Part shown: positions 1 to 10,680 of the stretch, one piece after another
How positions within the stretch are numbered: position 1 is the first letter of the stretch
Layout of the letters: each line of letters begins with the position of its first letter
Assembly: GCF_000208925.1 (NCBI RefSeq)
Contig: NW_001915078.1
Span: forward strand, 16,618-27,297
DNA: 10,680 nucleotides
Origin: Entamoeba histolytica HM-1:IMSS
Taxonomy: Eukaryota > Evosea > Mastigamoebida > Endamoebidae
Direction of reading: 5' to 3'
The notes under the pieces: model-generated
What the model was told of the DNA's origin: nothing
The model's database searches: none
Seen by the model: only the letters and a program-made list of their open reading frames with translations
Made by a program: the position numbers and the translations under genes

Positions 1-387
1 ACAGTGAAAGATGACAACGGAAAGAATTTCTGTGGTAGTGAAGATGAAACAGTTGTTGAAGAGAGAAACTTGAAGATATCAGATATTATGTGCCTTCAAA
101 TGGATTTGAAGAAAATAATAGATGAGTTCAAGATACTAGTTAACGGGAATGATTTATCATTAGGTATCGATCCATTATATTGTTTCAAATGTATAGTTGA
201 AGGTAATATAGAAACAATAGAAGAGATAGAAAAAGAAATTAAAGCATTCAAAAAGAGAAACATTCTCTTTATTAATGCATTGAAAGAATTAAAGAAAAGA
301 AGAGAAAGAGAAGATCGAATCGATAAACTAGAGAAGAAGAAACAAGAAGAGACAAAACCAGAGAGGAGAAAAACTAGACCTCTCTAG
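1..387 (+). CDS. Accessory protein A, copy 1 (5' end uncertain or outside the window)
   Basis: I do not recognise a family. The frame is open from the left edge to TAG at 385-387, about 127 residues from a GTG at 4. It has a KISD motif near residues 24-27, a helical middle and a strongly basic, coiled-coil-like tail rich in K, R and E. The gene at 1041-1394 is its diverged paralog: both have KISD(I/L), a similar helical middle and an RxxERE...LEKK tail. Where the paralog has its ATG, this copy reads TTC, and the only other in-frame ATG is at 88. So the true start is upstream of the window, non-AUG, or the copy is damaged. An ATG at 11 is in another frame and soon stops. It faces the minus-strand gene at 526-828 and is followed by repeated TTTAATTTAATT, a plausible eukaryotic 3'-end signal. 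Confidence 0.6.
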   Translation, partial: TVKDDNGKNFCGSEDETVVEERNLKISDIMCLQMDLKKIIDEFKILVNGNDLSLGIDPLYCFKCIVEGNIETIEEIEKEIKAFKKRNILFINALKELKKRREREDRIDKLEKKKQEETKPERRKTRPL

Positions 388-525
388 TTTAATTTAATTT
401 AATTAATTTTAAAATTTTGTTATTTATTTTTTGTTATTCAAAATTTTAAAAAAGAAAATAATTTGTTATTTAAACAATAAGCAATAAGCAATAATAAAAT
501 AATAATAAAAAGGAATAAAAAGCAT
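388..525. other. AT-rich convergent intergenic region with a promoter-like 15-mer
   Basis: This spacer lies between the 3' ends of two convergent genes. It holds TAATT-type motifs (388-415) fitting 3'-end processing in AT-rich protists, a direct repeat of CAATAAG at 475-494 (two full units and most of a third), and at 462-476 the 15-mer TTTGTTATTTAAACA. That 15-mer is identical to the promoter-like sequence on the minus strand before the genes starting at 828 and 1752. Here it points rightward, with only an 11-codon frame (from 535) after it, so what it drives, if anything, is unknown. Confidence 0.5.
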
Positions 526-828
526 TCAATTAAGATGTCTTACATCGAGAATATAAATGCGATGTAAAATATAAGTCAACAACGAAACAAGTCGTTGACT
601 ATTAAGTAGCATAGCATTTAAATCAATTATAATAAAGTTCAACATATCGAACATTTTCTTTGTGTACTTCATGTTATAACGATGGAACCAAATATGGAAC
701 CAATATACCAAAGAGTACAAAAATGTTCGATTAAACTCGGATATTTCCGAGTCAAGGAATTGTTGAACTATAAAGCCTATTTCCTTTATTAAAGAGGATA
801 ATAATGGCTTTTTGACTCTAGGAGGCAT
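526..828 (-). CDS. Accessory protein B, copy 1 (small helical protein)
   Basis: A 100-residue protein of unknown family, rich in L, I, F and Y, predicted by eye to be mostly helical; hydrophobic residues are spread out and not in one clear membrane span. From residue 8, PLLSS(L/I)(I/V)x(E/D)I, then (F/L)L(D/E)S(E/D) and a long helical stretch, it aligns without large gaps to the product of 1477-1752, so the two are paralogs. The ATG at 828 sits 23 nt downstream of TATTTAAAC (852-860, minus strand), exactly the spacing seen in the second copy when that copy starts at 1752. It converges on accessory gene A copy 1. No function can be assigned. Confidence 0.65.
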   Translation of the reverse strand: MPPRVKKPLLSSLIKEIGFIVQQFLDSEISEFNRTFLYSLVYWFHIWFHRYNMKYTKKMFDMLNFIIIDLNAMLLNSQRLVSLLTYILHRIYILDVRHLN

Positions 829-1040
829 TGAATGCTATCTATATTATTGCTGTTTAAATAACAAATTAAATGGCTGATATGAGGTAGTATATGAGGTTAT
901 AAATGACTTTTAAACTATAATTAATAATAAAAATATAATATAATAAAAAAAGAAAATGTCTGTTTTGTCTCTCCATCTGTCTGAATGCCTGTTACATCTT
1001 AATATTTAAACCAGTGAAGAGGGATATCAAACATAACAAC
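829..1040. promoter_or_regulatory. Divergent promoter region between modules 1 and 2
   Basis: Noncoding spacer between divergent start codons. Minus strand: TATTTAAAC at 852-860, inside the 15-mer TTTGTTATTTAAACA (851-865), 23 nt before the ATG at 828. Plus strand: TATTTAAAC at 1003-1011, 29 nt before the ATG at 1041. Between them, 875-897 holds a tandem CCTCATA pair on the minus strand (12 nt start to start) that recurs inverted at 1891-1913. The TATA-like boxes are seen directly; promoter activity is inferred from position. Confidence 0.55.
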
Positions 1041-1394
1041 ATGTGCGACTCCCCCGAAGAAAGAAGTATGCAGCAGAGACTGAGCAAGGTCAAAATATCT
1101 GATTTAATTGATTACTTCAGAGGTATTGACGACTTGAAATATCTCTGTTCCGATTTTTTGGATTGCTTTGATAAAGAACAGAAAACTCCTTGTAATCTGC
1201 CCAAATATGATCTGTTGATGGAGAAAGAAGCAGAACTCGTGAAAGAAATTCACGATACGGCGAAAGAGATGATAGAAAATTATGCTGAAATCATCTTGTC
1301 ATATGAAGAAAGAGCTGCAGAAAGAGAAAGAAAGGAGCAGATAGAAATAATAAAGAGACTGGAAAAGAAACCTAAACTTCCCAAAGTCGATTAA
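1041..1394 (+). CDS. Accessory protein A, copy 2 (coiled-coil, basic tail)
   Basis: A 117-residue protein of unknown family. The frame is open from a GTG at 1014, but I choose the ATG at 1041: it is the first ATG, and a TATTTAAAC box lies 29 nt before it, matching the spacing at the 4999 gene. KISDL is near residues 18-22, a Cys/Asp-rich helical middle follows, and the last third is a charged helix with EERAAERERKE and a final LEKKPKLPK-type basic end. It is the paralog of the frame at 1-387. It converges on the minus-strand gene 1477-1752, keeping the A-to-B layout of module 1. The role could be host interaction or nucleic-acid binding by the basic tail, but nothing in the sequence decides this. 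Confidence 0.7.
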   Translation: MCDSPEERSMQQRLSKVKISDLIDYFRGIDDLKYLCSDFLDCFDKEQKTPCNLPKYDLLMEKEAELVKEIHDTAKEMIENYAEIILSYEERAAERERKEQIEIIKRLEKKPKLPKVD

Positions 1395-1476
1395 AATTAA
1401 ATTAATTAAATTCTTTTTAATATTATTTTGTTTATTAAATAAAAAATAAATAAAATAAAAAATAGTAAATTAACGA

Positions 1477-1752
1477 TTATTCCAAATCATTAACGAAATG
1501 GAAGTTTTCAAGTAACTCTAATAAACCTCCTAGTTTATTAAAACGTTTATCCTTAGTGCAAGAATCGACGAAACCTGTAAGGTAATAAAATAAAACATCA
1601 CTATAATTATAGTGTGTCTCCTCAAACCTCCTCATAAAATAGAGGATAGAATAGATTAGACATTTAGTGTCCAAATCCAAACTATCACTCTCGAGGAGAC
1701 CTTTACAGGTTTCGTCGATGTCTTGCACAATTGAAGACAAGAGGGGGAACAT
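1477..1752 (-). CDS. Accessory protein B, copy 2 (small helical protein)
   Basis: A 91-residue protein, unknown family, paralog of 526-828 through PLLSS, the following (V/I)x(E/D)I and an LxSxS segment, then a helical body with FMRRFEE and LGGLLELLENF. The frame is open to 1821, but that longer start adds a Phe/Tyr-rich piece which overlaps the 15-mer TTTGTTATTTAAACA (minus strand, 1775-1789). With the ATG at 1752 the TATTTAAAC box (1776-1784) is 23 nt upstream, identical to copy 1, and both proteins then begin near PLLSS. I therefore prefer 1752. The longer form, which would give a hydrophobic N-terminus, cannot be fully excluded. Confidence 0.65.
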   Translation of the reverse strand: MFPLLSSIVQDIDETCKGLLESDSLDLDTKCLIYSILYFMRRFEETHYNYSDVLFYYLTGFVDSCTKDKRFNKLGGLLELLENFHFVNDLE

Positions 1753-2036
1753 CGAATAAAATAAAAAGTACCTTTGTTTAAATAACAAATAAAACGTGTA
1801 AACAACACAACAAACAGACACTCAAAGAGGAATTTCTAAATTAATTGAATTATATTTTTATTAATCTTTATAGTTTAAAAATCATTTTCTGCCTCATACA
1901 TTACCTCATATCAAAAACAATCCGGAAAAGATAACGAAAAGAGATAAATTAACCAACCAAATAAACAGACAATGAATAAACAACACGTAGACATTTAAAT
2001 AAAAAGGTCCAACAAATCATTTGATAACATCGAACA
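1753..2036. promoter_or_regulatory. Divergent promoter region between module 2 and Rep
   Basis: Noncoding spacer of 284 nt. Minus strand: TATTTAAAC at 1776-1784, 23 nt before the ATG at 1752. Plus strand: a weaker TATA-like CATTTAAAT at 1992-2000, 36 nt before the Rep ATG. In between are the tandem CCTCATA pair (1891-1913; inverted copy at 875-897) and the 15-mer GAAAAGAGATAAATT (1936-1950), which recurs at 4944-4958 before the 4999 gene. Rep or host-factor binding is possible but inferred. Confidence 0.5.
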
Positions 2037-2717
2037 ATGAGTAGCTTACTCGATAGATACTATTCCTTTAATGCAATGCATGGCTTCCTCACATTGAACT
2101 TCGATGCTAACCATCCATCTCTCTCCACTCCAATATTAAAGCAGATGGTGGAAAATTGGTGCTCCACGAAAACAAATAAGGCTGAAATAGAATACTTGGC
2201 CGTAAGTAATACCAAGGGAAAGAATGCTCATGCTCATGTATTCTTTAAATTAAACGAAAGAGCAAAAGTTCATAAAAAACCAGTTGCTAAAATAAATAAT
2301 ATAGAATACAAATTAGTATTCACCCCAGTCACGGAACATAAGAAATTTGATGGATCATTTCAAGCAATAATAAAATATCTGAAGAATCAAAACAAAAAAC
2401 ACGGAGCAGAATCTACTTTTGACGAAATTGGCAAAGAAGAAGCAATAAAAGGAAAAGTGGGAAATAACCTAGTGGAACAAGCACTATCATTGGAAAATTT
2501 GAAAGAGGCGGAAGGATTATTGAGACAGGCAAGCATGACCTGGTATTTAAATAATGTAAAAAAATTTAGAGAAATATGGAGAGAGCAACACAGCAATAAG
2601 CAGCCGAACAGAATTAACATAAAACTTAGACCCTGGAAAGAAGACAATATCCTTGTAAAAAATGCCAGAGCTTGGCTCCAGGGGGTTAGGTTAAAATGTC
2701 GAAGCAAAAAAGAGTGA
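2037..2717 (+). CDS. rep: Rep, HUH endonuclease part
   Basis: A 226-residue replication initiator of the CRESS-DNA type, expected to nick the origin and join DNA ends through a tyrosine. Motif I is GFLTLNFD (residues 16-23). Motif II is NAHAHVFFKL (63-72), with His65 and His67 as the metal-binding HxH pair. Motif III is IKYLKNQNKK (112-121) with Tyr114 as the likely nucleophile. The usual YxxK is not exact: position +3 is Asn, with Lys at +2 and +4. The C-terminal 100 residues are a helical linker. CRESS Reps normally continue into an SF3 helicase in one chain; here the frame ends at TGA 2715-2717 and the helicase follows in the -1 frame with a 22-nt overlap. The chosen start is the first ATG, 36 nt after a TATA-like box. 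Confidence 0.85.
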   Translation: MSSLLDRYYSFNAMHGFLTLNFDANHPSLSTPILKQMVENWCSTKTNKAEIEYLAVSNTKGKNAHAHVFFKLNERAKVHKKPVAKINNIEYKLVFTPVTEHKKFDGSFQAIIKYLKNQNKKHGAESTFDEIGKEEAIKGKVGNNLVEQALSLENLKEAEGLLRQASMTWYLNNVKKFREIWREQHSNKQPNRINIKLRPWKEDNILVKNARAWLQGVRLKCRSKKE

Positions 2718-3361
2718 AGACACTAGTTCTTCTTGGAGAAACCAGAATAGGGAAGACAGAGTTCGTAAATGATCTTCTCAAGGGGCTAAAAGTAGATGAA
2801 TTTAGAGGACATTTTATGTTCGATGGTCATGACGAATATAAGAACTATGATATTCGTCTGTTCGACGATGCCAATTTAAAAGAGGTAGAATGGTTCGAAT
2901 TCAAAGCTTTAATATCAACGAGGGGTGAGACGATTACCATGAATATAAAATATGATCACATAAATGTAACCAGTCTTCCCACTATAATAGTAATGAATAC
3001 TAAAAACTGGGATCTAATGAAGAAAATAGCTAAAGAGCATAATGATTTAGATTGGCTCGAAAAAAATACGGCTGTTCTTTACTCAAAGGAGCCCCTCTTT
3101 GAAAGACCAAAAGAAATTAGAAGAACCATAGAAGAACTAAAGAAACAATATGGTGATTTGGATCCAGCCATATTGGAGATGTTTGATGAAGAAGACATCC
3201 AACCAGATCAAGAAGAAGGAAGTGAAGATAGCTCCTCAGAATTCCAATTACAAGAACCACTTCCAGCTATAATTAATCCAGAAATAACCTTGAGATTGCC
3301 AGATGATGACTTTATTCCAGAACCAGAAAAAAAGACTCAGAGTGCCATCAATAGAAGATGA
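2696..3361 (+). CDS. Rep, SF3 helicase part
   Basis: A 221-residue SF3 ATPase that should unwind DNA during replication with the HUH protein. Walker A is GETRIGKT (14-21), the GxTRxGKT form seen in geminivirus- and genomovirus-like Reps. Walker B is IRLFDD (53-58). A KY pair follows near residues 85-86. Motif C is PTIIVMN (95-101) with sensor Asn101. The last 60 residues are acidic and proline-rich. A TAG in this frame at 2687-2689 means any fusion to HUH must form between 2690 and 2717. The ATG at 2696 would instead allow a separate protein by reinitiation. The tail may continue in another frame (see 3327-3410). The family assignment is firm; how it is expressed is not known. Confidence 0.85.
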   Translation: MSKQKRVKTLVLLGETRIGKTEFVNDLLKGLKVDEFRGHFMFDGHDEYKNYDIRLFDDANLKEVEWFEFKALISTRGETITMNIKYDHINVTSLPTIIVMNTKNWDLMKKIAKEHNDLDWLEKNTAVLYSKEPLFERPKEIRRTIEELKKQYGDLDPAILEMFDEEDIQPDQEEGSEDSSSEFQLQEPLPAIINPEITLRLPDDDFIPEPEKKTQSAINRR

Positions 3362-5322: not shown

Positions 5323-6813
5323 TTATTTATTATAAAATTTAATTTTTCCATTTATTGTTTTAAAATGATTAATTTTATCATCATCAGGTGATACTCTAAG
5401 TAATACCTTTTCATAATCAGCACGTTTATCACTTATTCCCCATTGTTTTAATTGTTTATAAACATTCTTCATTACTTCAAATCTATCTTGTCCGCTTTGT
5501 ACTTTATTAAAATGAGGTTGTTTATATAAATATTGATGTAATCCTCTTCTTTCAAAATCAGATGGTTTAAAGATAGTACCTTTATTATCACTTCTATTTG
5601 TTCTTGCACCAATATGAATTTTATGATAATAATCATCAGAAGAATGTGTACTAATAGCTTCTGGTACTGGAATATATTGCAAACTTTCATATCTTCTCAT
5701 AACATTTGGTTCAAATGCAACATCTTCAATTCTCTTCCATAATTCAGGTGGTAATACACTTCTAATATATTGTTGACTAAAATTCAATTGGTCTAAATCA
5801 TCATCCATTAATTTATGTTGATTAGTCAAATCATTTAATTTATCAACAACAATATCACTAATCGGTTTAATAGCATCCAAATACTTTTGTATAGCCAAAG
5901 GAGCAAGAACACCAGACATTTGATCTACAATTGATGAATCTAAACATTTTTCCCCTTCTGGTGTTGTTTTAAAACAATTTCCATTAACACGAATAACTTT
6001 TCCTTTATACAAAACGGGTAATGTCAAATTTATATCCTCAGGATGAGTAAGATAATACAAAGCTAATTCTTTCTCTCCAAAAATAGTAGAAATATATTTA
6101 TCAACAATTTCAGGTCTATTCTGAATTGCCATCTTAATTAATTCAAGTGCAGTATTCTTCTCAAATAAATCTCCTTGTTTGTATCTCTTTTCCAAATATT
6201 TATATAAATTGTTTCCTTTTATTGCCTCATTAAACTCTTTGAATTCTTTAATATTAAAAATGGAAGAAACACCAAAAGCTTTTGCAATATCAGTAAAATA
6301 TCTCGAACCATATTTTTTATATCCATCAACAATCCCTCGAATCAATGAAACATCTAAACGAGCAGATGGATCAAAAAGACTCTTACCATCTGTCATTTCC
6401 CAAAATTTATCTTTTATAAAATCTTTAATAATTGTTACTGGTTTCTTCTCTTCAATAAAATTATCAACTACATCAATAACACCTTTTACTTTACTTTGTA
6501 AATCTTCAGAATCAATTACTTTCTTTACATTTGGTAAAGATGGAATATACTTCTTTATTTTTTCTTTATCAAATATTTTCCCACCATCATACTTAGAAGT
6601 ACTAAATGGTTTATATTTTGAACTATCAACTCTCCTAGAATTATCAAAAGGACGAATACTTAGTGGATTAGTTCTGTTAGAAATACTAAAAGGATGATAT
6701 TTCTGTTGATTACTTCTTCGTATTCCATCATAATTAAATCGTATAGATCCATATGAACCATATCTTCTTTTATGAAGATTTAATCGTTGTTTTCTCTTCT
6801 TAACCAAACACAT
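5323..6813 (-). CDS. 496-residue putative virion protein with KRRYGSYGSI motif
   Basis: I do not recognise a family. The N-terminus is strongly basic (MCLVKKRKQR), then KRRYGSYGSI (15-24), matching KRKWGSYGSI of the 3448 product. Residues 38-72 carry short repeats: KYHPFS, SIRPFD, KYKPFS. From about residue 85 the protein is mostly helical with few low-complexity parts; two Cys in NCFKTTPEGEKCLD might pair. The C-terminal third holds PPELWKRIED and a long soluble segment. There is no Walker motif, protease triad or evident membrane span. The start is the first ATG, 6 nt after a T-rich tract. It follows the membrane-protein gene on the same strand with 12 nt between them. A minor capsid or internal virion role is the best guess from context. 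Confidence 0.7.
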   Translation of the reverse strand: MCLVKKRKQRLNLHKRRYGSYGSIRFNYDGIRRSNQQKYHPFSISNRTNPLSIRPFDNSRRVDSSKYKPFSTSKYDGGKIFDKEKIKKYIPSLPNVKKVIDSEDLQSKVKGVIDVVDNFIEEKKPVTIIKDFIKDKFWEMTDGKSLFDPSARLDVSLIRGIVDGYKKYGSRYFTDIAKAFGVSSIFNIKEFKEFNEAIKGNNLYKYLEKRYKQGDLFEKNTALELIKMAIQNRPEIVDKYISTIFGEKELALYYLTHPEDINLTLPVLYKGKVIRVNGNCFKTTPEGEKCLDSSIVDQMSGVLAPLAIQKYLDAIKPISDIVVDKLNDLTNQHKLMDDDLDQLNFSQQYIRSVLPPELWKRIEDVAFEPNVMRRYESLQYIPVPEAISTHSSDDYYHKIHIGARTNRSDNKGTIFKPSDFERRGLHQYLYKQPHFNKVQSGQDRFEVMKNVYKQLKQWGISDKRADYEKVLLRVSPDDDKINHFKTINGKIKFYNK

Positions 6814-6832: not shown

Positions 6833-7050
6833 GGAATTAAAGTTTTTACTACTTCTAATACTTCTTCTACTGCATTCATAACATTCCCCTGTCTTCTACT
6901 TTCAAAAAATGCAAAGAAACAACTAGCTATTAATAATATACATGATAATAGAAGCATGACTATTTTACGGATAATATTCCATGTACTTTCTTTAAACACT
7001 TCTTCTGTACATTTAGACGAGTGATTAGAATCACTGGAGTCTGCACTCAT
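6826..7050 (-). CDS. Small single-span membrane protein
   Basis: 74 residues: a Ser/Asp-rich hydrophilic N-terminus (1-25), a hydrophobic span at about 29-49 (IVMLLLSCILLIASCFFAFF), a short basic stop (ESRR, 50-53), then a C-terminal amphipathic helix (VMNAVEEVLEVVKTLIP). No family is recognised; it could be a viroporin, a virion membrane anchor or a membrane-perturbing entry or exit factor. The ATG at 7048-7050 is 3 nt from the divergent ATG of the capsid-like gene at 7054. Its upstream region, inside that gene, has AATATAAAGA (7071-7080) and ATGAACTG (7064-7071) on the minus strand, like a TATA box and GAAC element. Confidence 0.65.
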   Translation of the reverse strand: MSADSSDSNHSSKCTEEVFKESTWNIIRKIVMLLLSCILLIASCFFAFFESRRQGNVMNAVEEVLEVVKTLIPN

Positions 7051-7053
7051 ATT

Positions 7054-7914
7054 ATGAATTATTCAGTTCATCTTTATATTCAAATGATCCGTTCTAGAAA
7101 TAACTGTCCTAATAATACACATGAAGTAGAATTTGTATTTAATACCCCTATTGAAATTATATTAAATAGAGGAATGGGTGTATATACAACTTCTCTTTTT
7201 AATTTACTCTTCAATAATACTAATTATAAATCATTCTGTAATTGTTTTAAAAGAGTTAAAATATTTAAAGCATTGATTAGTCTCTCAATAGGAGAAATAA
7301 ATGTAGAAGAAATAGGATTAAATTTTCCTATTGTTAGTACTACATGGTTTCAGACATATATTCGTTCCAATATTGATCAAGACACTGCTGATGACAAAGA
7401 TATAAATAAAGTAATTAATATGATTAATTCAAGTACTCATTTACAACAACAAGTCTATTATCCAGGTGGAGCATTTCAAATTAATAGTATTATTAAAGCT
7501 ATGACATTACAAGAACAAAACTATTATGGACCTACTAGAGTAGAAGGATATTGGAAATATGATTCACCTGAACTTCAACCATTTACAAATGAAAATGTAA
7601 GTATTCCTTTTTATCCATGGTACTTCATAGGAGTAGAAACACCAAATAACAATGATAATAAAAGTATTAAATTCAATTGTCAATGGTATATCACTGTTCA
7701 TTTTGATAGATATATTTGCACTCCAATAGAAGAAGAACAAACAATGAATTTACTTGATTTAAATGTCAATTTAACTAATGAAGAAATCAAACAAAGAGAA
7801 ACACTCACATATCAAGCAGAAAACAATTCAGCATATGAAAAAGTAACTATAGCATTTCCAGAAAAAGAAGAATCTACATTTATTTTAATTATAAAAGATA
7901 AACAAATATATTAA
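7054..7914 (+). CDS. Second capsid-like (jelly-roll) protein, paralog of the main capsid
   Basis: 286 residues from ATG 7054 (ATG 7084 is an alternative; a GTG at 7021 would overlap the divergent gene). It aligns with the main capsid along the jelly-roll: KRVKIFKALISLSI (66-79) with the capsid's FKIDGV region; NFPIVSTTW (90-98) with its TFPNVITAW; YYPG (135-138) with YYPG, then LQE exactly 17 residues later in both, followed by Y-x-PT-x-V; and FNCQWYITVHFD (207-218) with its FNLTWSWVVSL strand. It lacks the arginine arm and the long C-terminal region. This points to an ancient capsid duplication, with this copy perhaps a minor, vertex or penton-like subunit. Homology is judged by eye. Confidence 0.65.
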   Translation: MNYSVHLYIQMIRSRNNCPNNTHEVEFVFNTPIEIILNRGMGVYTTSLFNLLFNNTNYKSFCNCFKRVKIFKALISLSIGEINVEEIGLNFPIVSTTWFQTYIRSNIDQDTADDKDINKVINMINSSTHLQQQVYYPGGAFQINSIIKAMTLQEQNYYGPTRVEGYWKYDSPELQPFTNENVSIPFYPWYFIGVETPNNNDNKSIKFNCQWYITVHFDRYICTPIEEEQTMNLLDLNVNLTNEEIKQRETLTYQAENNSAYEKVTIAFPEKEESTFILIIKDKQIY

Positions 7915-7934: not shown

Positions 7935-8717
7935 ATGTCTATCATTAACAAGACAACAAAACAAGAAACTTTAATAAGAAAAGATGAAATAAATAAAAAT
8001 ACATTCAAAGTAACAGTAAATACAGATGATGTAACTATCGAAACAACTACAAATGGAATAACAACATTCACCAGTGAAAATTACATTGACCGTATTCAAT
8101 TAATCACTCAAGTACCTGAACCAAAAATACAAACAAAAGCAGTTACTATTACTGAAAATGGTTCATACACTATCAGTCCAGATGATAACCTTGATGCACT
8201 TGATCATGTCTATGTCACTGTAAATGTACCACAATATAAAATAGATTCTATAAAAATAAAGCAAAACGGTACTTATACATTAGCAACAGTAGCACCAGAA
8301 ATAATAAATATTACAGAAGATAACACTAATATTGCAGATTTAATACCAGCAGATGGAAAATTACATAAAGTCATAAATAATAGTACAGAAGAATACATTA
8401 AAATTTATACTACCAAAACAAACAACGAACAATACATATCATTTAAACGTGGAGTTATTGATGACCTCGAAATAACAGAAATAGAAAGTGATGTTGTAAC
8501 TTATTTGCAACAAAATACTCCTCGATATATATTAAAATTGTCTGTAAATTATATAAGTGAAGCGAAGATCGAATTTTGTGAAGGAACAACAGTAGAAAAC
8601 ACAATGGTATTATTTGATTATCAATCATATTATGCTAAATCACAACAGGCATCATCAGCATCTTCGTTAATAACAATACAACATAAAATAATTTCAGAAA
8701 ACTTCCCAATAAAATAA
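7935..8717 (+). CDS. Spike/fibre-like protein with a phage-tail-type beta repeat
   Basis: 260 residues, rich in T, N, I and V, with a beta-strand pattern throughout and no signal peptide. Residues 69-98 carry AVTITENGSYTISPDD followed by LDHVYVTVNV, a repeat type I know from tail, baseplate and receptor-binding proteins of phages of gut Firmicutes and from their surface proteins. A shorter second copy, IKIKQNGTYTL, is at about 106-116. The C-terminal half is less familiar and has a Ser/Ala linker near the end (SQQASSASS). Its place between the capsid paralog and the capsid suggests a virion surface protein for attachment. The repeat implies gene exchange with, or a shared niche with, gut bacteria and phages. 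Start: the only early ATG, 8 nt after a junction motif. Confidence 0.65.
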   Translation: MSIINKTTKQETLIRKDEINKNTFKVTVNTDDVTIETTTNGITTFTSENYIDRIQLITQVPEPKIQTKAVTITENGSYTISPDDNLDALDHVYVTVNVPQYKIDSIKIKQNGTYTLATVAPEIINITEDNTNIADLIPADGKLHKVINNSTEEYIKIYTTKTNNEQYISFKRGVIDDLEITEIESDVVTYLQQNTPRYILKLSVNYISEAKIEFCEGTTVENTMVLFDYQSYYAKSQQASSASSLITIQHKIISENFPIK

Positions 8718-8731
8718 TTAAATTAATTTAA
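8718..8731. terminator. Palindromic bidirectional gene end TTAAATTAATTTAA
   Basis: A perfect 14-nt palindrome directly follows the spike-gene stop (TAA 8715-8717) and contains the capsid-gene stop (8728-8730, minus strand). It presents TTAATTT-type sequence on both strands, so it could act as a 3'-end signal for both convergent genes. Confidence 0.45.
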
Positions 8732-10251
8732 GCACTAATAAGTTTTTGGTTATCATTTGAAAACAATCCAGTAACAAATGTTTTACTAACAAGTACAACC
8801 GGATTCAATACTCCATTTCCTACTGTACCAGCAGCAACTGGTAATGCACCTGAAGCAATAGTAACTGCCGTATCTTCAACTGTTCCACTATAAGCATATA
8901 AAAGAGATCCAATTACATCAGTTGATGCACCAGTAGTAGTTTTAACATTAATTTTAACTTCTGAATTAGCACCAATAGAACTATCAGGTAAGTTAATTCC
9001 ATAAATATCAAATTCATTACTTGCAATAACATAAGTATCAGCATCAGTTGAAATAGTAACAGTATGTGCATTAGTATTAGCATTACCAAATAAATAAGCA
9101 GATATATTATATCCTTTTACTCCAGCACCAAGAGTACCAGCAGTAGCAAATACAACTAAACGTACTCTCATAACACTTGAACTACCTCCATTAATAGTTA
9201 AAGCTTGATTACTTTGAGATGGTTGTTCTATACTAAATTGATCAAAATTCAAATCCATAGCATTAACTTGTGAAATTCCTGCATTATAAAATACATTATT
9301 CAAATACATCTTAAATGAATCAACTGTCCATGTATTAGATGAACTTGATAGTTGTCCACCTGTTGTTTGTACCATTGAAGTATAAATTGGATTATCTGTA
9401 GTAACAACTCCTCCATTGTTAGTTGTAGTCATACTAACAGGAATCATTGCATTATTTGTACCTGATGCAACTGTTCCAGCATTAGTATTAGCATAACCAA
9501 GTGAATTAGCAGCAGGTGTTGGAATAACATCAAGTGTACTTTTTCTCAATCCTCTAAGTGAAACAACCCATGACCATGTTAAATTAAATACAAGTGTTTG
9601 ACATGTAGCTGTTTGATTTCCTAAAAGAACAGAAAGTAAGAAATCAGGATTCCATGCTGCATATAAAGTAGATTCAGTTAATACTTCAGCAGTCTTTACT
9701 GTTGGAAGATAAATACTCTTCTCCTGTAATGAAGATGCAACAAGTCTTCTTGTAATACCCCATCTAGCTCCTGGATAATATGCTCTACTTACTGCACTTG
9801 AATATGAACTTACTTGATAAGGACCTGGTACTATTGGTACATTACTTAATACACCTTGTCCTTCTTGTGTTACTTGACTTGCTACTGCTTTATCTATACC
9901 ATTTCTATCCCATGCAGTGATAACATTAGGAAATGTCATTGCAGCTTGACCAAATGTATTGTAAACAATTTCAGCTGACACTGACACTCCATCTATTTTA
10001 AATTGATCATACATTCCAGCATAATATTGGAAGAATTCCGTGCCGCAAAGCAATTTAGTAACATTCCTTACAGTTGTAGCACCATTAGTATTTGCTGGAA
10101 TAGCTAATTGTACTGTTTCAGTAGCATTCAACACTACTTGAGTTGAATCTCTTTGTTGAAAAGCAGCTTTTAAATTCCCAGCCATAGTACTTCTTAAATT
10201 TCTTCTAGTTGAAGTTGGTCTAGTAGCCGTGGCTCTTCTTGTACGTCTCAT
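8728..10251 (-). CDS. cap: Major capsid protein (CRESS-type jelly roll with long C-terminal extension)
   Basis: 507 residues. The first 20 carry eight Arg (MRRTRRATAT...RR), the usual genome-binding arm. A jelly-roll follows at about 35-240 with landmarks YDQFKIDGV (81-89), ITAWDRNG (111-118), RAYYPGARW (156-164) and FNLTWSWVVSL (222-232); the first two are typical of circo-like and other CRESS virus capsids. Residues 241-507 are a separate beta-rich region, high in S, T, G, N and A, perhaps a protruding domain, which makes the protein longer than most CRESS capsids. It looks richer in GC than its neighbours. TATTTAAAC (10285-10293, minus strand) lies 33 nt before the ATG. It converges on the spike gene with 10 nt between the two stop codons. 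Confidence 0.85.
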   Translation of the reverse strand: MRRTRRATATRPTSTRRNLRSTMAGNLKAAFQQRDSTQVVLNATETVQLAIPANTNGATTVRNVTKLLCGTEFFQYYAGMYDQFKIDGVSVSAEIVYNTFGQAAMTFPNVITAWDRNGIDKAVASQVTQEGQGVLSNVPIVPGPYQVSSYSSAVSRAYYPGARWGITRRLVASSLQEKSIYLPTVKTAEVLTESTLYAAWNPDFLLSVLLGNQTATCQTLVFNLTWSWVVSLRGLRKSTLDVIPTPAANSLGYANTNAGTVASGTNNAMIPVSMTTTNNGGVVTTDNPIYTSMVQTTGGQLSSSSNTWTVDSFKMYLNNVFYNAGISQVNAMDLNFDQFSIEQPSQSNQALTINGGSSSVMRVRLVVFATAGTLGAGVKGYNISAYLFGNANTNAHTVTISTDADTYVIASNEFDIYGINLPDSSIGANSEVKINVKTTTGASTDVIGSLLYAYSGTVEDTAVTIASGALPVAAGTVGNGVLNPVVLVSKTFVTGLFSNDNQKLISA

Positions 10252-10556
10252 TTATTTCAATAACTCAGTTGAATCTAAATTGGAGTTTAAATAGCTGAAG
10301 CTAGCATGATACATAATATATGATGGATAATGATATCCTGTATTAAAATGATGTATAAACCCGTAAGAAATTAAATAATCGTTTTAGTCGTAATCATAAT
10401 GTGAAGAGGATCACAGTAACACAGTGGATGGGATAACTGAACCTGATTATGATTAAAAAAGATTTTTAATGCTAAAAGGGTCGTAAACTCCCATTATCAA
10501 TACATCTATTATCATTAATCCTTCATCATTAATTTGTGACATGCAGCTGACGTGGC
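10252..10556. other. Noncoding region between capsid gene and telomere-like hairpin
   Basis: About 305 nt with no credible gene. It holds the capsid promoter box, a small imperfect dyad GGATAATGATATCC (about 10324-10337), a direct repeat ATCATTAAT at 10511-10519 and 10525-10533 (14 nt apart), and a locally GC-rich stretch at 10538-10557 containing CAGCTGACGTGGCA directly beside the hairpin. By analogy with parvovirus ends, this last part could hold Rep-binding or packaging signals; that is inference. Confidence 0.5.
10285..10293 (-). promoter_or_regulatory. TATTTAAAC box before the capsid gene
   Basis: On the minus strand TATTTAAAC lies 33 nt before the capsid ATG, like the boxes before 828, 1041, 1752 and 4999. 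A TTGAAATAA segment next to the ATG may be near the transcription start. Confidence 0.5.
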
Positions 10557-10680
10557 ATTTTGTATAATAATTATTGTACCACAATATTATACTAACCACA
10601 ATCGTGCGTAGCACGATATTGCCCCTTCGGGGCAATTGTGGTTAGTATAATATTGTGGTACAATAATTATTATACAAAAT
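10557..10680. repeat. T/Y-shaped terminal palindrome (parvovirus-like telomere)
   Basis: The arms 10557-10602 and 10635-10680 are perfect reverse complements over 46 nt. Between them are two hairpins: ATCGTGC-GTA-GCACGAT (10601-10617, 7-bp stem, 3-nt loop) and ATTGCCCC-TTC-GGGGCAAT (10618-10636, 8-bp stem, 3-nt loop). The fold is a long stem capped by two arms, the A-B-B'-C-C'-A' plan of parvovirus terminal repeats. The stem contains TAATATTGT (10648-10656), seven of nine bases like the geminivirus nick site TAATATTAC. The window ends on the last base of the palindrome, as expected for a genome end. A contig broken at an origin cruciform of a circular genome is the alternative. Confidence 0.85.

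Follow-up and report, generated by a model that had tools for sequence, protein, structure and literature searches.

The sequence considered here is a stretch of 10,680 nucleotides (nt) from the genome of Entamoeba histolytica HM-1:IMSS (C174:16618-27297, contig NW_001915078.1), referred to below as the window. Four proteins that their sources assign to E. histolytica (P0001, P0015, P0025 and P0028) match this genome at 99.8-100%, in agreement with this host. It carries genes for a replication protein (Rep) like those of circular Rep-encoding single-stranded (CRESS) DNA viruses and for a predicted jelly-roll capsid protein, and it terminates in a long palindrome that coincides with the end of the contig. 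The first open reading frame (ORF) runs off the left edge, where the adjoining assembly sequence is N, so the left end of this copy is unreadable. The features are as follows, with copies elsewhere in the genome named by contig:

1..1821: variable left-end genes, from ORFs and comparison of copies; the left terminus lies outside the window
2037..2717, plus strand: Rep, HUH endonuclease part, from the ORF, relatives and the predicted fold of relative P0002; frame split from the helicase part
2696..3361, plus strand: Rep, superfamily 3 (SF3) helicase part, from the ORF and Pfam; Walker A and B residues invariant in relative set A1
5323..6813, minus strand: element gene of 496 amino acids (aa), function unassigned, from the ORF
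7021..7914, plus strand: element gene, also in C189, from the ORF and comparison with C189
7935..8717, plus strand: element gene, also in C189, on the same basis
8728..10251, minus strand: capsid protein, 507 aa, jelly roll plus projecting domain, from predicted structure and structure search
10540..10556: inner continuation of the palindrome arm; its outer partner is lost at the contig end, and the partner sequence is present in C189
10557..10600: main stem, left strand, of the capsid-side terminal palindrome, from arm comparison and DNA folding
10601..10617: inner hairpin 1, 7 base pairs (bp), loop GTA, from DNA folding; in C69 and C123 the loop is kept and two pairs are changed on both sides
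10618..10636: inner hairpin 2, 8 bp, loop TTC, from DNA folding; in C69 and C123 the loop is kept and one pair is changed on both sides; broken in C189
10637..10680: main stem, right strand; the contig, not the element, ends here, and the C189, C123 and C48 copies extend outward
10579, 10596, 10636 and 10653 (within 10579..10658): TTGTGG/CCACAA candidate Rep-binding repeats, two pairs, spacing 17 nt

An earlier note, made from the letters of the window alone, had described a T-shaped palindrome at 10557-10680, and this structure is real. Its 46-nt arms (10557-10602 and 10635-10680) are 100% complementary across a spacer of 32 nt, and DNA folding gives a 44-bp stem that encloses the 7- and 8-bp hairpins, each with a 3-nt loop, without a mismatch. 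The fold energy is -57.3 kcal/mol, compared to -10.4 +/- 2.3 for shuffled sequences (z -20.75), and 0 of 200 shuffles were equally stable, which places the structure far beyond chance. Furthermore, matches to a 32-nt piece of the arm (up to 3 mismatches) are confined to the two arms of the window, with a chance expectation of 0. TTGTGG or its complement occurs 6 times in the window, 4 of them inside the palindrome, and these stem repeats may be sites of Rep binding. In C189, each side of the palindrome is longer by ~20-25 bp, and the contig continues beyond it; other copies also run outward.

The same note had assigned both proteins to the CRESS type, whose genomes normally carry a simple nonanucleotide stem-loop, and its assignment of the Rep is supported. 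By its motifs and by the predicted fold of relative P0002, the Rep is of the CRESS type, with HUH and SF3 domains. In a structure search with the Rep of this relative, CRESS Reps rank first, and the HUH domain aligns to the Reps of geminiviruses and redondoviruses. No parvovirus HUH domain is among the best 50 structure matches listed, a result that still allows for a likeness, and the Rep model has some structural likeness to Rep68 of adeno-associated virus (AAV) and to the B19 NS1 helicase. Of the Pfam families, 5 match any of 19 Reps, with no parvovirus family, including Parvo_NS1, among them. The capsid is modeled as a jelly roll plus a projecting domain (predicted local distance difference test 64, predicted template modeling score 0.42), and the model thus has the jelly roll of CRESS-DNA viruses (Cressdnaviricota). 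With Foldseek it matched capsids of norovirus, tombus-, sobemo-, noda- and circoviruses (E 3.5e-6 to about 1e-4), and no parvovirus capsid is among its 50 structure matches listed. Searches of PDB sequences with Rep and capsid gave 0, 0, 1 (E 0.084, unrelated) and 0 matches. The CRESS origin carries the nonanucleotide motif NANTATTAC. This motif is present twice in the window, both times within the 7935-8717 frame and in neither case with a stable stem-loop (z -0.69 and 0.78); a nonanucleotide stem-loop origin was not found in the window, although the origin may be of an unusual kind or lie beyond the window.

The window copy is endogenous and decayed rather than a free viral genome; it is judged decayed because its Rep is split over two overlapping frames, and Rep copies with open frames are present elsewhere in the family. 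In the assembly searched (16.95 Mb, 392 contigs), there are 23 Rep matches on 15 contigs and 13 capsid matches on 12 contigs, including five full-length capsid frames that are 91.6-96.5% alike. The Reps fall into at least two types, one in C11, C48 and the window and the other in C189, C123 and C69, with 47-49% between types and 74-82% within the second type over 403-416 aa. A distant subfamily (C72, C82, C86, C88 and C49) has 22-26% in Rep and 39-40% in the capsid. Measured from end to end, the integrated copies span 10,478 bp in C123 and 10,301 bp in C189, and the size of the family is ~10.3-11.2 kb.

The ends of these copies carry the main result. The survey covered 7 right and 6 left ends; C335, C348 and the second-subfamily copies except C88 were left out. 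Long palindromes with two inner arms are present at the right ends of C123, C69 and C189 (in C189 the second arm is broken) and at the left ends of C69 and C123, and consequently C69 and C123 have a T-shaped palindrome at both ends. The expectation that related contigs would have the same palindrome at both ends thus holds for these two, and not for every copy. The 124-nt core has one and the same sequence in C69-left, C69-right and C123-right, and C123-left has exactly the reverse complement of it, down to an additional 16-nt unit that one side of the stem carries. The two orientations truly differ, since the core matches its own reverse complement at no more than 82 of 124 positions. Both orders of the inner arms, which the earlier note had proposed to look for, therefore exist among the assembled copies compared, and one genome holds both the flip and the flop form known from parvovirus telomeres. 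Judged by the order of the loops, the window has the flip form and the right ends of C189, C123 and C69 have the flop form. Between the window and the C69/C123 type, both loops (GTA and TTC) are unchanged, while 3 of 15 arm pairs and 2 nearby stem pairs are changed on both sides with pairing kept. When the C69 and C123 rows are placed on the full stem of the window, only 42-47 of 59 positions pair, with gaps at 4-9 positions, because the numbers of stem repeats differ; each folds well alone.

Beyond the palindrome, the larger copies of the first family share a terminus of ~24-33 bp, found at 7 of the 7 readable ends (in C11, C48, C69 (left), C123 and C189). This terminus ends in the 24-mer GTTATAAACCATTTATATTTAAAG, whose exact matches in the genome are only at those 7 ends; the remnants C142 and C239 and the second-subfamily copy C88 have no match to it. 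That the 24-mer was a pre-existing target site is unlikely, given exact matches only at the 7 element ends, one further site with 3 mismatches, and 1 for the reversed control pattern. At 5 of the 7 ends (C69-left, both of C123 and both of C189), another sequence starts at the base directly after the terminus. Its first 41 nt are also present at 12 other genomic places, with every match beginning exactly there, and the C123-left flank continues into a frame that, in our judgment, resembles the C-terminal part of the reverse transcriptase of a long interspersed nuclear element. Thus, retroelement-type 3' ends abut the end of the element. This arrangement would be accounted for by reverse transcription primed at a linear viral 3' end, or else by a retroelement that targets the element's end. 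C48-right and C11-left share a 0.7-kb segment after the terminus. The earlier reading of position 10680 as the terminus of a free genome is not supported: the window is an integrated copy, and the common terminus of its relatives lies farther out.

The T-shaped palindromes that two sister copies carry at each end, in both orientations and with paired changes, together with a CRESS-type Rep and the integrated state, have led us to favor, with some but not high confidence, the following model. The copies would be integrated forms of a linear, hairpin-telomered Entamoeba virus or virus-like lineage of ~10.3-11.2 kb with a CRESS-type Rep, which may be copied in a rolling-hairpin-like manner. The window palindrome is then best read as the capsid-side telomere of an endogenous copy. 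Each end of the single-stranded element would fold into a T, whose 3' end may prime copying. The CRESS-type Rep would bind the stem repeats, nick near the base of the stem and resolve the end, and this resolution would invert the inner arms to give flip and flop. The linear genome may then be packaged, and copies would have joined host DNA, with the retroelement-type 3' ends now directly against the terminus at 5 of the 7 readable ends.

It should be noted that a number of findings weigh against this model. At each of the readable ends mentioned above, the shared terminus is situated beyond the palindrome, the evidence consists of integrated copies only with no free molecule seen, and searches of viral contigs and phage records, from which records near the window's genome were possibly omitted, gave no exogenous relative. 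Of the right ends, an intact T is found in 3 (C174, C123 and C69), a degenerate T in 1 (C189), a simple hairpin in 1 (C48), a different hairpin in C142 and no hairpin in C239. On the left, 2 ends have a T (C123 and C69), 1 has a half or simple form (C11), C189 has none, C174 is unreadable, and in C48 two left ends meet head to head with no hairpin. In addition, the six aligned rows represent few independent types, only two sequence types show paired changes, and in C189, compared to the window fold, two arm pairs are broken, a third is gapped and two stem pairs are broken. Finally, flip and flop could have arisen by recombination between the arms (cruciform inversion) or by assembler error or misassembly.

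Several irregular ends and neighboring sequences have features of their own. The C48 junction (C48:1-1500) carries, by eye, divergent ORF1 copies, an arrangement that could be left over from a dimeric replication intermediate. The C142 remnant has at its capsid-side end (L041:1896-2011) an unrelated long hairpin with a 28-bp perfect inner stem, where other copies have the T-shaped one, perhaps through telomere exchange. C11 (L008:4839-4864) has a second telomere stem motif ~150 bp inside its end, perhaps an old half-telomere. C88, of the second subfamily, has 2-kb inverted repeats that are 98.5% alike; both contain a perfect 54-bp palindrome that lacks inner arms. This copy also carries a deoxynucleoside kinase gene (L071:2421-3149; Pfam dNK, E 5.4e-10, above the cut-off), an unexpected neighbor for a CRESS-type Rep. 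Two frames that adjoin the element at C189:13745-15009 resemble another virus-like remnant and have no convincing Pfam match. Near the left end of the window, the ORFs at 4-387, 526-828, 1014-1394 and 1477-1821 appear by eye to form related gene pairs, ORF1 is highly variable with a conserved tail, and an inverted repeat of 81 nt (80%) joins 875-955 to 1833-1913.

Another possibility is a transposon-like element with terminal inverted repeats. In this case, the outer shared sequence would be the true end, the palindromes would be subterminal sites of HUH-type transposition, comparable to those of Helitron or IS91-type ends, there would be no linear hairpin-ended genome, and the arms would flip by chromosomal cruciform recombination. 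The 24-mer outside the palindrome at 7 ends, the spread of Rep matches over 15 contigs and the several ends with a simple or no hairpin all speak for it. However, full-length capsid frames are kept in 5 copies, and the entire 124-nt core, asymmetric 16-nt unit included, is inverted and recurs at left and right ends, as telomere transfer would produce; furthermore, we are aware of no need for a two-arm T design in transposition. On this evidence, a transposon is unlikely, although it deserves to be taken seriously.

A circular CRESS virus that has one long palindromic origin and integrates by being cut there appears quite improbable. The Rep and capsid folds are CRESS-like and known Entamoeba CRESS viruses are circular (PMC7493932), but C69 and C123 hold complete palindromes rather than halves at both ends, the window is without the nonanucleotide stem-loop, and the size is 10.3-11.2 kb. 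The integrated copies have fixed ends and a common terminus; no free form was seen. That the palindrome is an artefact of assembly or of fold-back where the contig ends is more doubtful still. The palindrome does stop exactly at the C174 contig end, and C69 also ends just beyond its right palindrome; however, in C189 and C123 such palindromes are internal, with DNA on both sides, which excludes the artefact as the whole explanation. Moreover, the inner arms are separate hairpins rather than a fold-back, and the loops are conserved with paired changes, although arm orientation alone could still reflect a choice of the assembler. An endogenous member of the Parvoviridae is scarcely credible: the T-shaped ends and the helicase likeness to AAV Rep68 and B19 NS1 would fit, but the Pfam matches are without a parvovirus family, the HUH domain aligns to geminivirus and redondovirus Reps, the length is 10-11 kb rather than 4-6 kb, and the 50 capsid matches listed hold no parvovirus capsid.

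The linear, hairpin-telomered model bears on the broadest claim of the earlier note, that hairpin telomeres replaced circular replication. It is upheld in part by C69 and C123, which have a T-shaped palindrome at either end, by the flip and flop, by the CRESS-type Rep, and by the lack of a usual CRESS origin in the window; the window is not the free genome that had been supposed, and rolling-hairpin replication is a putative mode of copying. We consider the case evenly poised for a protist lineage with a CRESS-type Rep that abandoned genome circularity in favor of T-shaped hairpin telomeres and replication by rolling hairpin, whether on a path separate from parvoviruses or as a remnant of the way in which they arose, with a genome of 10-11 kb, about twice parvovirus size. 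If true, either rolling-hairpin replication was invented a second time, or the family offers a view of the transition from a circular to a hairpin-ended linear genome. The copies also suggest that elements exchange telomeres and that retroelements may help to capture linear viral ends, and a hairpin-ended CRESS-type element in a culturable organism would be testable.

The inverted terminal repeats of AAV have a T shape, flip and flop forms, and stem repeats. The Entamoeba family shares with AAV and the Parvoviridae the T-shaped palindromic ends, flip and flop, a repeated stem motif, and an HUH plus SF3 replication protein. It differs in a Rep endonuclease nearest to CRESS Reps, a capsid nearest to those of RNA viruses and circoviruses, a length of 10-11 kb, a shared terminal sequence outside the palindrome, and an amoeba host. 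Hairpin telomeres at both ends are found in C69 and C123 (C48, C11, C189-left, C142 and C239 differ), and flip and flop in C123-left versus three other ends, with the caveat of assembly; the copies do not have the 4-6-kb size of the linear single-stranded DNA genomes described for Parvoviridae (PMC6537627). Parvoviruses have been proposed to descend from CRESS-DNA viruses, and the part of that account considered here names no intermediate between circle and hairpin-ended line (PMC6668415).

Entamoeba CRESS viruses and the Redondoviridae have small genomes. Those of Naryaviridae and relatives are described as circular (PMC7493932), as are the Redondoviridae, whose Rep is of the same general kind and whose host is an amoeba (PMC12981564). 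Both groups share the amoeba host and general kind of Rep with the present family, and endogenous copies are reported in Naryaviridae and relatives; unlike these circular genomes, the present copies are repeated and have fixed palindromic ends. Within titles, abstract openings or passages, in a search that most subscription papers and preprints lay outside, no hairpin-ended CRESS-type Entamoeba element was described. Eh_ERE1 (7.16 kb, with 2.2-kb inverted repeats) and Ed_ERE1, which is flanked by inverted short interspersed nuclear elements, are likewise AT-rich Entamoeba elements flanked by inverted repeats or retroelements (PMC2657916); by its description there, however, Eh_ERE1 is set apart, having a single 369-aa gene and no reported Rep, capsid or hairpin. 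Table 1 of PMC3198968 gives 14 endogenous virus-related genes of E. histolytica, which are probably in part the same loci as here; the portion of that paper considered describes no termini or whole Entamoeba elements. The same source reports in the acorn worm a parvovirus-like repeat with a 5' palindromic hairpin; like the present family, it is endogenous and repeated and has a palindromic hairpin at an end, but it encodes parvovirus NS1 and VP1 domains.
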